Source: an uncultured Ruminococcus sp.
GTDB taxonomy: Bacteria; Bacillota; Clostridia; Oscillospirales; Acutalibacteraceae
Assembly: GCA_904393835.1 (NCBI GenBank)
Contig: CAJFNC010000012.1
Location: 45,557-109,556 of the forward strand
Direction of reading: 5' to 3'
DNA: 64,000 nucleotides
Shown: in pieces, positions 29,851-37,833 of the stretch
How positions within the stretch are numbered: the first letter of the stretch is position 1
Layout of the letters: each line of letters opens with the position of its first letter
Notes under the pieces: model-generated
Databases searched by the model: none
What the model saw: the letters and a program-made list of their open reading frames with translations, nothing else
Told to the model about the DNA's origin: nothing
Program-made: the position numbers and the translations under genes

Positions 29851-29935
29851 GCGGGCGTGGCGGAATTGGCAGACGCGCCAGATTTAGGTTCTGGTGTCAA
29901 CCGATGTGCAGGTTCAAGTCCTGTCGCCCGCACCA
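29851..29935 (+). tRNA. tRNA-Leu (anticodon UAG), CCA encoded
   Basis: GCGGGCGTGGCGGAATTGGCAGACGCGCCAGATTTAGGTTCTGG...GGTTCAAGTCCTGTCGCCCGCACCA. Confidence 0.96.
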
Positions 29936-30312: not shown

Positions 30313-30861
30313 TCAATTCAACGATTTATACATTGTGTAATCAACCACACCGTTAATTCTTTTGCAAGCGTCAATCTCAAGCTCCTGCACCATAAGACAC
30401 TCGGGGGCAGGAAGTCCTACACTTTCTCCTGCAACTATTCCAAAATTTAAGGAAGTCTTGAAACCTCTATTTCTGTAATTCATCGGGTTACCCTCAACGA
30501 TAACCACCTTGAATCCCATTTTCTTTGCTTTCTCTAAACCGTATTCGATAAGTTCTTTAGAGATGTGCTGTCGCTGTAATTCTGTTTTTACTGCAACAGG
30601 ATTGAGAATCAAAAGTTCATCTGAAAACTTGCCCTCAAGGTGGAATCTTGAAAACATAGCATAGCCGATAACTTCGTCATTTTCATCCACCATGATAAGC
30701 TCAAGTTCAGGCATATAATAATCATTTGCTCTGATTTCCTCAACTAAGTTTACGACAATCTGTGCTTCCTCAGCAGTTTCAGAGTTTGTAAAAGTTCTTC
30801 TTATCATACCGAGGGAACTCTGTAGATACTTATATTCCATTGATAAAATTTTCCTGTTCAT
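30313..30861 (-). CDS. GNAT family N-acetyltransferase
   Basis: MNRKILSMEYKYLQ...; LLILNPVAVKTELQRQHISKELIEYGLEKAKKMGFKVVIVEGNPMNYRNRGFK; RBS GGAGA ahead of ATG at 30861. Confidence 0.85.
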   Translation of the reverse strand: MNRKILSMEYKYLQSSLGMIRRTFTNSETAEEAQIVVNLVEEIRANDYYMPELELIMVDENDEVIGYAMFSRFHLEGKFSDELLILNPVAVKTELQRQHISKELIEYGLEKAKKMGFKVVIVEGNPMNYRNRGFKTSLNFGIVAGESVGLPAPECLMVQELEIDACKRINGVVDYTMYKSLN

Positions 30862-30862
30862 A

Positions 30863-31900
30863 TTACCAAATCTCCTTTTTATTCTGTTTTTCAAATTTTC
30901 TCAAATTTTTACCCCATTGCTGTTTTTGCCTGCGATAATCGGCGGTATCTTCGTTGTACTTTGCCTCTGACTTAAGCTTTTTATAGCTTTCAAAACGGGC
31001 AGGGTCAAGAATACCATCTTCTATAGCTTTTCTTACTGCACAGTGGGGTTCGTTTTCGTGTTTGCAATCACGAAATTTACACTTTCCTATAAACTCCTCA
31101 ACATCTGCAAAAGCTTCGCCTAAACCCTCACTCACATCCCACATACCAAGCTCACGCATACCGGGAGTGTCGATAATCATAACACCATTCTTGAGCATAA
31201 TAAGTTCTCGGTGGGTTGTGGTGTGTCTGCCTTTTGAATCATCCTCACGGATACCATTTACATCCATAATATCTTGACCTGCAAGAGCGTTTACCAAGCT
31301 TGATTTACCAACACCTGACGACCCTAAAAAAACATGAGTCTTTCTCTTTTGCATATACTTTGAAAGCTCATCTAAGCCAAAGCCTGTTTTCGAACTTACT
31401 ATGTGTGTGCTTACGTTTGGTGCTACACGGCTCACTTCAAGAATATAGGGCAAATAGTCATCAACTAAATCCGCCTTTGTCAAAATAATGACAGGTTCAG
31501 CCCCCGACTGTCTGACTGCAGTTAAGTACCTTTCAAGTCGCTTTGGGTTAAAATCGTTATTCAATGACTGCATAATGAATACATAATCAAAGTTTGCAGC
31601 AACCGCTTGTTCGCCTCTGCCTTTGTCGGGGTCACGGCGAGAAAAGTAGGTTCTGCGTTTTAGTGTTGCTATAATTCTGCTATCACCGTTTTCAACATAA
31701 TCTATCAGCACAAAATCGCCTACTGTAGGGAATTTTTCACCCTCGTAGTAATATACCTTTGACTTTAACTGAGCGTAGCCCTCGCCAAAATCAGATACAA
31801 CGCCAAATCTGCCTTTATGCACAGAGGTTATGCGTGCAGGTGTACCGCTTGTATTTTCGGGGATCAAATCGTAATTAAATCCAAAATCTGTTATATTCAA
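30863..31900 (-). CDS. rsgA: RsgA-family (circularly permuted) ribosome small subunit-dependent GTPase, probable TTG start
   Basis: ILTKADLV (NKxD-type), LGSSGVGKSSLVNALAGQ, DTPGMREL, CKFRDCKHENEPHCAVRKA Zn motif; GGAGGA 8 nt upstream of TTG at 31900. Confidence 0.9.
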   Translation of the reverse strand: MNITDFGFNYDLIPENTSGTPARITSVHKGRFGVVSDFGEGYAQLKSKVYYYEGEKFPTVGDFVLIDYVENGDSRIIATLKRRTYFSRRDPDKGRGEQAVAANFDYVFIMQSLNNDFNPKRLERYLTAVRQSGAEPVIILTKADLVDDYLPYILEVSRVAPNVSTHIVSSKTGFGLDELSKYMQKRKTHVFLGSSGVGKSSLVNALAGQDIMDVNGIREDDSKGRHTTTHRELIMLKNGVMIIDTPGMRELGMWDVSEGLGEAFADVEEFIGKCKFRDCKHENEPHCAVRKAIEDGILDPARFESYKKLKSEAKYNEDTADYRRQKQQWGKNLRKFEKQNKKEIW

Positions 31901-31976
31901 CTTATGTTCCTCCAAAATCAGTTGTGTTTTTATTAAAGTTATAATCTTTCTGCTAACTGAAAATGGACGCAAAAAT

Positions 31977-32011
31977 GCCGCAGAAAGTAACCCTCAAAGG
32001 ATTTCTGCGGC
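31977..32011 (-). terminator. second leader hairpin/terminator upstream of rsgA
   Basis: GCCGCAGAAA-n15-TTTCTGCGGC followed by ATTTTTG; loop contains CCTTTGAG. Confidence 0.7.
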
Positions 32012-32043
32012 TGAGCAAATCGAGTGATTATTGAAACAAAAAA

Positions 32044-32062
32044 GCACACCCTTTGAGTGTGC
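32044..32062 (-). terminator. first leader terminator upstream of rsgA
   Basis: GCACAC-TCAAAGG-GTGTGC followed by TTTTTT. Confidence 0.75.
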
Positions 32063-32162
32063 CATAACATCAGTCATAGAATTCACGAAAGGTTCCTTAA
32101 AACGGCACGACAAACAAAGGGGCTTAAAAGTCCCGATTTTATTTAGACGCACCAATATTCAG

Positions 32163-32192
32163 TTAGCGGTTAATTACCTCGCTGTAAATCAT
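32163..32192 (-). CDS. putative 9-aa leader peptide MIYSEVINR
   Basis: AAAGGAGAATTTCAGT-ATG ATT TAC AGC GAG GTA ATT AAC CGC TAA, downstream of a near-consensus promoter. Confidence 0.6.
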   Translation of the reverse strand: MIYSEVINR

Positions 32193-32251
32193 ACTGAAAT
32201 TCTCCTTTCTCGTTTGCCTTTAATATTAAGTCAGCAAACTAATACGCTTAA

Positions 32252-32280
32252 AGTATACTACTATAACTGAAATTTGTGAA
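32252..32280 (-). promoter_or_regulatory. promoter of leader-rsgA-GNAT unit
   Basis: Minus strand TTCACA-17 bp-TATACT. Confidence 0.65.
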
Positions 32281-32414: not shown

Positions 32415-32484
32415 TTGGCAGACGCGCCAGATTTAGGTTCTGGTGTCAACCGATGTGCAGGTTCAAGTCCTGTCGCCCGCACCA
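32415..32484 (+). repeat. truncated tRNA-Leu copy (exact 70-bp direct repeat of 29866-29935)
   Basis: TTGGCAGACGCG...GCCCGCACCA identical to the tRNA-Leu 3' part; the 5' 15 nt of the tRNA are missing. Confidence 0.95.
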
Positions 32485-35203: not shown

Positions 35204-35627
35204 ATGGATATTTGGAACAAATTATACGAAAAAACAAAGAAGGAGTACCGCCCTAAAGATGTATCGCCGTTTGTTACGGCACATGACGTTGTATGCGCTT
35301 TGGAAGCTGAAAGCGGAGAGATATTCACAGGTTTTTGTATTGAGAGCTGCAGCGACGTTATGAATTTATGCGCTGAGCGAGCAGCCGGACTTAATATGTA
35401 TATGAACAGCGGTCAAACTGTTGTAAAGCATATGATTGCATTTATGGATAAAAGCCAATACAACGAGGGCATTCTTTATTCAGCTTAACGAGAAAAATGA
35501 AGATATGGAAATATTAGAAAAATATCTTATTTGGTATTCAACTCCTGAAAAATTAGGAATTGAAGAGCACACAACACCTAAAGTATTTTTTGAATTATCA
35601 AACAAAAAGTTTAATGAAGTTTGGTGA
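35204..35627 (+). pseudogene. cytidine/blasticidin-S deaminase-like gene with deletion and frameshift removing the PCxxC segment
   Basis: MDIWNKLYEKTKKEYRPKDVSPFVTAHDVVCALEAESGEIFTGFCIESCSDVMNLCAERAAGLNMY... then KSQYNEG and a frame change to FFIQLNEKNEDMEILEKYL. Confidence 0.65.
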
Positions 35628-35632
35628 TAATA

Positions 35633-36067
35633 ATGATTAGAGAAATCAAAATAAATGAACTGAACGAGCTACTCGAATTATATACACATTTGCACGAGCT
35701 TGGTGTTCCTGCGCACAGCGAACAATTGGAGAAAACTTGGAACACAATTTGCAATGACGAAAATCATCATATTATTGTTTGTGAGGTTGACGGAAAAATT
35801 GTATCTTCCTGCGTGTGCGTTATAATTCCGAATCTTACAAGAAATATTCGTCCTTACGCTTTTATAGAAAATGTTGTTACTCACGCCGATTACAGAGGAA
35901 AAGGTTATGCAACCGCTTGTCTGAACTACGCAAAGGAGCTTGCACAAAAAGCAAATTGCTACAAAATGATGTTGCTCACAGGTTCGAAGAACGACAGCAC
36001 TTTAAATTTTTATAAAAAAGCAGGTTACAACTCAGAGGACAAAACTGCGTTTATTCAATGGTTATAG
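35633..36067 (+). CDS. GNAT family N-acetyltransferase
   Basis: MIREIKINELNELLELYTHLHE...; FIENVVTHADYRGKGYATACLNYAKELA. Confidence 0.9.
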   Translation: MIREIKINELNELLELYTHLHELGVPAHSEQLEKTWNTICNDENHHIIVCEVDGKIVSSCVCVIIPNLTRNIRPYAFIENVVTHADYRGKGYATACLNYAKELAQKANCYKMMLLTGSKNDSTLNFYKKAGYNSEDKTAFIQWL

Positions 36068-36078
36068 GGAGTTATGGT

Positions 36079-36540
36079 ATGAAAATAGAATACAGGAAAG
36101 CAACGCTTGATGAAGCTCAAAGAGTATGTTATATTGTTCAGCACACAAAGGCTGAAATTTATCCCGATTACTATACAAAAGCAGTTGTTGACTTTTTCGG
36201 CAGGCTTCACAGCATTGATAATATAGTAAAAGATATAAAAGCAGGCAGAATAAGCGTTTTAATCAAGGACGGCAAAATCATCGGCACAGGCAGTCATACC
36301 GATAATCACATTACAAGGGTTTATGTTCTGCCTGAGTTTCAGGGACAAGGCTGCGGCAGTCGTATTATGGATGAATTGGAAAAAGAAATTTTCTCAAAAT
36401 ACGATTACTGCGAGCTTGACGCTTCACTTCCGGCTTGTATCTTCTATGAAAACCGTGGTTTTAAAACTGTAAAGCACATCAAATATGACATCGGCAACGG
36501 CACATTTATGATTTATGAAATTATGAGGAAAGAAAAATGA
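36079..36540 (+). CDS. GNAT family N-acetyltransferase
   Basis: MKIEYRKATLDEAQRVCYIVQHTK...; RVYVLPEFQGQGCGSRIMDELEKEIF. Confidence 0.9.
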   Translation: MKIEYRKATLDEAQRVCYIVQHTKAEIYPDYYTKAVVDFFGRLHSIDNIVKDIKAGRISVLIKDGKIIGTGSHTDNHITRVYVLPEFQGQGCGSRIMDELEKEIFSKYDYCELDASLPACIFYENRGFKTVKHIKYDIGNGTFMIYEIMRKEK

Positions 36541-37007
36541 TTCGAAAAATGCAACCGAACGAATATCACCTGCTTGACGATTTCTTGTATCAGGCGATTT
36601 ATCAGCCCGATAAAACGAAATTAGCGCCGAAATCAATTATAAAAAATCCCGAACTTCAGATTTACATAAAGGATTTTGGAAAACAAAAAGACGATTATTG
36701 TTTTTGTGCCGAGGTCGATAACAGAATTGTCGGAGCAGTGTGGGTTCGTAATATCAACGGATACGGCGGTATCGATGATAACACAGTTGAGTTTGCCGTC
36801 TCGGTTTTTGATGAATACCAAAAAATGGGTATCGGCACTGCACTGACGAAAAGAATGCTTGAACATCTGAAAGGACTGAATTATTCAAAGGTCTCTCTCA
36901 GCGTTCAAAAGAAAAACTACGCTGTAAAAATGTATCAGAAAGTCGGTTTTGAAATTGTTGATGAAAACGAGCAGGAATTTATTATGATACACAGGTTGCA
37001 AATTTAG
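36537..37007 (+). CDS. GNAT family N-acetyltransferase
   Basis: FAVSVFDEYQKMGIGTALTKRMLEHLKGLNYSKVSLSVQKKNYAVKMYQKVGFEIV. Confidence 0.9.
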   Translation: MIRKMQPNEYHLLDDFLYQAIYQPDKTKLAPKSIIKNPELQIYIKDFGKQKDDYCFCAEVDNRIVGAVWVRNINGYGGIDDNTVEFAVSVFDEYQKMGIGTALTKRMLEHLKGLNYSKVSLSVQKKNYAVKMYQKVGFEIVDENEQEFIMIHRLQI

Positions 37008-37204
37008 TGCAAAAGAAAACAATAGTCGTACCGTATCTGATACACGATGATTCGGTATTTACCTTAAACAGCGAAAACAACAGAAAAGTATTTATCAATT
37101 TAGGCGTGCCTGATTTACGGAAAGAATACGATAGAATTATTAGCTTAGGTATTGCGGCCGAATTAACGCCTATAAGGTATCTGAATGTGTTTTCTCCTTA
37201 TTGA
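37007..37204 (+). pseudogene. possible VOC/glyoxalase-fold fragment
   Basis: VFINLGVPDLRKEYDRIISLGIAAELTPIRYLNVFSPY then stop; lacks the rest of a VOC module. Confidence 0.4.
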
Positions 37205-37248
37205 TATCAGGAGAAAAATTGATTATTGATTTTAGGAGTGAATTATAT

Positions 37249-37833
37249 ATGAAAAATCTCGGAACAGTAACACTTGAAACAGAAAGACTGATACTTCGTA
37301 AGACGAGGCAGAATGACGCTGAACCGATGTTCAGAAACTGGGCAAACGATGAGAGAGTAACTAAATATATGACTTGGGCTCCATATGAAAGCGTTGAGCA
37401 ATTGGAAACTACATATCACCAATTTTTGTTGGATAATCAGGATAAGCTTGATTTTTATGACTGGAAAATAGAGCTCAAAGAAATCGGCGAGCCTATAGGC
37501 GCAATCAGCGTGGTACAGCTCAGAGAGGATATTGAAGCTGCTGTAATCGGGTATTGTCTTGGTTATAATTGGTGGAGCAAAGGAATAATGAGCGAAGCTT
37601 TTAGAGAAGTAATCAGATTTTTGTTTGAAGATGTAGGCTTAAATCGTATTGAAGCTTATCATGATCCCCGTAATCCGCACTCAGGCGATGTGATGAAAAA
37701 ATGCGGATTAGTATATGAGGGAACTGCAAGACAGGCGGATAAAAATATGCAGGGCATTTGCGACAAAGTGCATTACGCAATATTGAAATCTGATTATATG
37801 ATAAGCAATTTAAAAGATTTATTGGTGATATAA
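37249..37833 (+). CDS. GNAT family N-acetyltransferase (RimJ/RimL type)
   Basis: VTLETERLILRKTRQNDAEPMFRNWANDERVTKYMTWAPYE; YNWWSKGIMSEAFREVIRFLFEDVGLNRIEAYHDPRNPHSGDVMKKCGL. Confidence 0.93.
   Translation: MKNLGTVTLETERLILRKTRQNDAEPMFRNWANDERVTKYMTWAPYESVEQLETTYHQFLLDNQDKLDFYDWKIELKEIGEPIGAISVVQLREDIEAAVIGYCLGYNWWSKGIMSEAFREVIRFLFEDVGLNRIEAYHDPRNPHSGDVMKKCGLVYEGTARQADKNMQGICDKVHYAILKSDYMISNLKDLLVI

Follow-up and report, generated by a model that had tools for sequence, protein, structure and literature searches.

Known leaders that respond to drugs each serve, as a rule, a single resistance gene and a single drug class. MsrDL stalls at its UAA stop codon, relieving an intrinsic terminator, and the MsrDL-msrD system resembles the leader described below in its very short UAA-ended leader ORF and its intrinsic terminator, with a resistance gene behind it where the present leader has resistance-type genes (PMC10314930). 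The rli80-hflXr attenuator of Listeria, which is induced by lincomycin and erythromycin, has a comparable series of leader ORF, alternative structures and terminator ahead of a ribosome-associated GTPase paralogue (PMC6310831). A uORF, an anti-SD element and an intrinsic terminator are also found at cplR / lmo0919 (vgaL) (PMC10201436), and toiL-topAI-yjhQ of E. coli is similar in that one uORF senses several ribosome-inhibitor classes (PMC12121999). Here we describe a leader that would work like these leader-peptide attenuators, having an ORF with an SD and an intrinsic terminator. On balance we favor the view, drawn from its sequence, that it represents a family of leader-ORF transcription attenuators which occurs in Bacillota and is not tied to any one gene, probably acting via a ribosome held by translation inhibitors.

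The window analyzed is a stretch of 64,000 nucleotides from an uncultured Ruminococcus sp. The leader lies on the minus strand, upstream of an accessory rsgA gene (RsgA2), and is composed of a promoter, an SD, an ORF, a hairpin (P3), an anti-SD-like sequence, AACCTTTCGTG, and two intrinsic terminators. All the elements that a first-pass annotation of this DNA had named on the minus strand were found where it had placed them or a few bases off. A consensus scan identified a sigma-A-type promoter, TTCACA-N17-TATACT (32252..32280, minus strand, as for all leader features below), with 10/12 matches, and the family consensus has a TATAAT-like box at an equal distance. Directly 5′ of the leader SD is a hairpin, P1 (GTTTGC...GCAAAC, 32212..32239), identified by genus conservation and RNAalifold, with a mean pairing of 28% across the family. 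The leader SD itself, GAAAGGAG (SD1, 32202..32209), is near-invariant in the family. It is followed by the leader ORF, MIYSEVINR plus TAA (32163..32192, ATG at 32192), which is conserved in start, length, stop and frame. Within the ORF, the duplex energy with the 16S tail and the spacing revealed an internal SD-like site, GAGGTAAT (SD2, 32173..32180), with 10 nt from its GGT end to the stop codon.

About 9 nt past the leader stop begins the P3 hairpin, GGTGCG...CGTGCC with an inner GGG/CCC stem (32104..32153), which is supported by covariation; the segment CCCCTTTG...GTGCC was read from the sequence at 32122-32104. The anti-SD motif CCTTTCGTG (aSD', 32084..32092) is complementary to SD1 and is the family's strongest conserved stretch. 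Terminator 1, GGCACACTCAAAGGGTGTGC-T6 (32037..32063, hairpin 32063-32043), was found by a scan and by covariation, and terminator 2, GCCGCAGAAA...TTTCTGCGGC-ATTTTT (31971..32011, hairpin 32011-31977), from the sequence and by covariation. The RBS and start of rsgA, GGAGGA-TTG, were read at 31913-31898. In the window, the whole leader RNA was more stable than its dinucleotide shuffles (z -2.44).

The gene behind the leader, rsgA2 (30863..31900, minus strand), has a TTG start and encodes an accessory RsgA GTPase of 345 aa, as identified with PF03193 (170 bits), TIGR00157 (179 bits, cut-off 100) and PDB RsgA chains. It has the family's circularly permuted GTPase domain, PF03193 and TIGR00157 both scoring above cut-off. 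A second RsgA of the same genome, on another contig (G000:C21), is 31% identical to it. In a tree, 38 leader-linked RsgA proteins formed one group (support 93/93), parted by a long branch (100/100) from 18 housekeeping RsgA proteins; a leaderless relative (L018) was placed beside the leader-linked group. By its sequence, RsgA2 is a second, accessory RsgA and not the housekeeping orthologue. It is no known resistance gene.

Downstream of rsgA2 and overlapping it is a gene for a GNAT acetyltransferase (30313..30894, minus strand; PF00583, 34 bits). The tRNA setting seen in the first-pass annotation proved to be a perfect 70-nt tRNA-Leu repeat flanking the 2.5-kb leader-rsgA2-GNAT module. A repeat comparison identified the 3′ 70 nt of tRNA-Leu(TAG) at 29866..29935 and a second, truncated copy at 32415..32484 (both on the plus strand), 100% identical over 70 nt and 2549 bp away. 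Among 100 genus genomes, only that of the window had a second copy of the repeat with 100% identity. No integrase between the tRNA-Leu repeats was present in the window's ORF list. The arrangement suggests that the module was inserted at the tRNA gene. A few kb from the module there is also a closely spaced run of GNAT-like ORFs (window 35621-37833, plus strand).

The same leader was found upstream of orthologous rsgA2 genes in eight relatives. A pattern of the SD and the ORF start gave a single match in each of 17 genomes out of 161 in the genus, while a reversed control pattern matched none. A covariance model built from the genus copies (R1) found distant copies in further genera and families. 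Nine weak R1 matches (L070, L074, L075, L077, L078, L079, L088, L091 and L093) were without the leader anatomy and were rejected as chance. When one genome of each GTDB species was scanned with a DNA pattern, 94 stretches were obtained, and a further covariance model (R2) detected the leader in 8 of 399 genomes sampled from the phylum (about 2%) and in 15 of 392 from the class. In total, about 135 distinct leader copies were found across Bacillota; the carriers include Oscillospiraceae, Lachnospiraceae, Paenibacillus, Lysinibacillus, Neobacillus and Shouchella. In the genome of the window, the leader occurs once. None of the 4227 Rfam models, T-box and riboswitch models included, gave a relevant match to the window or to 20 relatives. 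Searches of plasmid and phage collections gave no homologue of the leader core, and a distant variant gave chance matches only. The papers searched, a set that excludes subscription papers and preprints, held no description of the leader. As judged from Rfam and these papers, our best reading is that the leader belongs to a previously undescribed, gene-independent family.

The genes behind the leader were classified by motif and by eye in the 127 copies with a readable gene, and representatives were checked with Pfam and NCBIfam. rsgA2 was the downstream gene in 83 of the 127 copies. The others included about 20 APH-type kinases, 9 GNATs, 4 methyltransferases, 5 ABC transporters (one of these assignments, L094, is from a Walker A motif alone, the truncated query having no Pfam match), 2 Tet(M)-like ribosomal protection proteins and 1 MutS2-like protein. 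Some of the leader-linked GNATs are fused to an APH-like or beta-lactamase-like domain. The Tet(M)-like protein, divergent and of 629 aa, follows the leader in L160 and L182; that of L160 (Acetatifactor muris) reached 650.6 bits with the tet_protect model, whose cut-off is 775, and is therefore a divergent relative. In L084, the leader anatomy precedes the MutS2-like protein (PF00488). In genome G112 (locus L048), the leader stands directly before the GNAT gene, with no rsgA2 between them; it precedes a different GNAT gene in G089 and an ABC drug-exporter-type ATPase gene in G148. It is therefore a cassette and not a part of rsgA2. The downstream genes appear to be of ribosome-protection or drug-modification types, as predicted from their families, and share no common ancestry. 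The link to ribosome-protecting or drug-modifying genes, first proposed from rsgA and GNAT alone, thus holds more widely than the window showed, extending to APH-type kinases, GNATs, methyltransferases, ABC exporters and Tet(M)-like proteins.

A leader ORF was present in 133 of the 135 distinct copies. Its start was ATG in 131 of the 133 ORFs, its length 9 or 10 codons in 114, and its stop TAA in 123, TGA in 8 and TAG in 2; for L163 the leader table has a mis-picked start, the real one being TTG. Length varied by whole codons, the GGTR motif was nearly always in the same frame, and a Val codon was found four codons ahead of the stop in 108 of 124 distinct ORFs. The suggestion that the leader has an ORF with its own SD is borne out by the SD, start, frame and stop kept across these 133 ORFs, a pattern that points to translation. 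Two copies have lesions. In L054 (genome G084), a small deletion around 1501-1560 removed the leader stop, leaving a 29-codon reading through P3 that ends just before the anti-SD motif. In L055 (genome G116), a 14-nt duplication in the ORF shifts the frame, and a TGA overlapping the TAA (TAACTGA) ends the ORF at about the same place.

A short leader ORF and a terminator close to a tRNA gene would be expected of an amino-acid or tRNA-charging attenuator of the trp or T-box type. The 133 ORFs, however, had no regulatory codon run and their variable codons differed from copy to copy, no Rfam T-box model matched, and the downstream genes are not biosynthetic. We regard such an attenuator as extremely improbable.

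The leader peptide had no known drug-arrest motif. The codon preceding the conserved Val almost always ended in G (GAG, ATG, AAG, AGG or TTG). Where it encoded Glu, it was GAG in 85 of 85 cases, whereas the downstream genes favor GAA (1906 vs 1297). With the 16S 3′ tail, the ORF formed a stronger duplex (-9.79 kcal/mol) than its synonymous recodings did (-7.04 kcal/mol), and none of 200 recodings was as strong. This excess held separately in GAG-type and ATG-type leaders, two unrelated codon types, and in the ATG-type leaders it was not explained by pairing to the leader's own anti-SD motif. A reversed-tail control was also in excess, to a smaller extent (-6.25 vs -5.30), and general G-richness therefore accounts for part of the effect. 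Of 117 leaders, 114 had SD2 placed 10 nt before the stop codon, a geometry in which that codon would occupy the A site of the ribosome. SD2 is kept beyond coding need, as if to hold a ribosome at the stop codon. The leader might offer a natural case of an SD-like sequence within an ORF positioning the ribosome.

Two helices downstream of or involving SD1 were analyzed across the family. P2 is formed by the leader SD, with its 5′ flank, and CCTTTC of the anti-SD motif; it was paired in 92.7% of cells and recurred across the family in ensemble folding. For P3, changes on both sides were seen at all six of the outer pairs (6/6). P2 and P3 together had 50 cells with two-sided changes, a number reached by none of 500 shuffles (0/500), and slid controls failed. 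Both strands of P2 hardly vary, one of them having to match 16S rRNA. Because SD1 and the anti-SD motif barely vary, the support for P2 is mainly complementarity, and covariation cannot prove this helix. In the large copy set, the search pattern fixed both P2 strands, which biases any P2 covariation test there; in copies found without that pattern, both strands were still nearly invariant. In the GNAT/beta-lactamase group, the anti-SD motif is AACTTTC and one P2 pair is lost. Four copies, L067, L081, L087 and L206, have a leader variant without terminator 1 in which AACTTTC replaces AACCTTTC and which precedes a fusion of GNAT and beta-lactamase-like domains.

The single-stranded stretches around P3 were nearly invariant, such as GAATA, found in 105 leaders, and AACCTTTCGTGAATACT. 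Together with the failure of the family tests to identify an antiterminator, they could be explained if the leader were riboswitch-like, P3 and the invariant single strands sensing a ligand or a protein and the ORF being incidental or auxiliary. Against this, almost all copies keep the ORF, its variation is of the coding type and its stop does not move, the invariant motif complements an SD that is itself held invariant by 16S rRNA, and no Rfam riboswitch model matched. A riboswitch-like leader is in our judgment very doubtful. Terminator 2 is followed, in most copies of the family alignment, by a short tail, TTTTTGCGCC/ATGCC, that resembles the 3′ arm of P3. With a ribosome masked at the start codon, this tail was a weak alternative partner of the P3 5′ arm (12% mean pairing).

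Between the leader ORF and the gene, a hairpin with a T run was present in 127 of 130 members, and two terminators in 84. In the family alignment, the covariation z was up to 13.6 for terminator 1 and about 10 for terminator 2, whose hairpin was found in most relatives and is more widespread than terminator 1. These results agree with the intrinsic terminators predicted for this interval. Terminator 1 was missing altogether in L061, L062, L064, L067, L081 and L087.

In the model of the first-pass annotation, a ribosome stalled on MIYSEVINR would free CCCCTTTG...GTGCC to pair with terminator 1 as a mutually exclusive antiterminator. In the window, this pairing (CCCCTTTGTTTGTCGTGCC with GGCACACTCAAAGGG) was indeed strong, at -18.0 kcal/mol compared with -10.2 kcal/mol for the terminator 1 hairpin. 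Across 122 members it was not above chance: the duplex of P3 with terminator 1 was -10.38 for native partners, -10.63 for swapped partners and -10.88 for shuffled sequences. A second proposed pairing, between the loop of terminator 2 and terminator 1 (CTCAAAGG/CCTTTGAG), failed, being absent in several relatives. In brief, folding and covariation across homologs upheld the ORF, P3 and both terminators as conserved, but not the proposed alternative pairings.

Masking by a ribosome gave a similar picture. In equilibrium folding with a ribosome placed at the start codon, in mid-ORF or at the last codon, the terminators stayed formed on average (probability 0.857 to 0.850 for terminator 1, 0.866 to 0.856 for terminator 2). 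When the mask was extended through the P3 5′ arm, terminator 1 fell from 0.94 to 0.43 in the window and to near zero in two relatives, as the antiterminator model would require; a ribosome at the stop codon, however, covers only the first few bases of P3, and the terminators then stay formed. Several members are, moreover, without terminator 1. We therefore consider the exact antiterminator model improbable. Ribosome masking, the swap and shuffle tests and family-wide contact maps revealed no conserved alternative fold. The anti-SD motif paired slightly better with the terminator 1 loop (-7.07) than with shuffled loops (-6.40, 0/200), and for the terminator 2 loop 2 of 200 shuffles were as strong; the copies being related and the effect small, this is only a hint that SD1 and the terminator loops would compete for the anti-SD motif. 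Folding here is at equilibrium, and cotranscriptional kinetics may be essential for the switch.

In the leader-ORF attenuator that we favor, transcription would start at the promoter, and the strong SD would start translation of the ORF of 9-10 codons. Without inhibition, the ribosome would finish and leave, and the freed SD would be captured by the anti-SD motif (P2). With P2 formed, the terminators would form and the gene would be off. Translation inhibitors, which are probably the inducers of the family, would keep the ribosome from leaving the ORF, with the stop codon as its most likely position, and would thereby block P2. The polymerase would then read through, and the accessory RsgA or another drug-protection protein would be made. 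MsrDL (PMC10314930) is a precedent for a ribosome held at a UAA stop codon ahead of a terminator, and HflXr (PMC6310831) for an inducible ribosome-associated GTPase paralogue. Points against this explanation are that the family tests revealed no conserved antiterminator, that the ribosome mask left both terminators almost unchanged, that P2 is supported mainly by complementarity and loses one pair in the GNAT/beta-lactamase group, that the leader is present in only about 2% of the genomes sampled from the phylum, and that the ORF has lesions in G084 and G116.

The same ribosome-dependent switch might instead respond to trouble in translation at large, such as termination or recycling that is slow, starvation or faulty 30S subunits, the resistance-type genes then being general ribosome-care genes. 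The position of SD2 near the stop codon fits the sensing of termination or recycling, the peptide has no known drug-arrest motif, and the commonest partner is rsgA2 (83/127), with a MutS2-like gene among the others. The APH-type kinases, GNATs, ABC exporters and Tet(M)-like proteins are hard to explain without drugs, and we find induction by general trouble rather unlikely.

A broader interpretation can be put forward tentatively: a single transferable RNA sensor, detecting by way of SD2 the ribosomes held at a stop codon, might serve across Bacillota as a plug-in 'ribosome in trouble' switch for unrelated protection genes, and its main client, the accessory RsgA, might represent a new class of inducible factors for 30S protection or drug tolerance. 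Since genes of at least seven unrelated families follow one conserved leader in many Bacillota, the leader could be used as bait, any unknown gene behind it being a candidate resistance or ribosome-rescue factor. The prediction for the accessory RsgA, otherwise annotated as a routine assembly factor, is that it protects ribosomes from inhibitors, as shown for the HflX paralogue HflXr.

The leader differs from each of the described systems. The toiL-topAI-yjhQ system acts on translation and Rho and not on intrinsic terminators, belongs to a toxin-antitoxin operon and is unrelated in sequence (PMC12121999). The rli80-hflXr peptide has 14 aa and includes an RLR macrolide motif, and the gene behind it is hflX rather than rsgA; no sequence shared with the present leader was seen in a comparison made through Rfam only (PMC6310831). 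In cplR / lmo0919 (vgaL), the uORF has three codons, the gene is of the ABC-F type and the terminator stem is described as sequestering the main-gene SD (PMC10201436), whereas the conserved anti-SD motif of the present leader complements the SD of the leader ORF. MsrDL-msrD has a macrolide arrest peptide, MYLIFM, and one gene (PMC10314930). In the present leader, by contrast, the peptide varies and it is an SD-like sequence inside the ORF that is kept, and many gene families are served.
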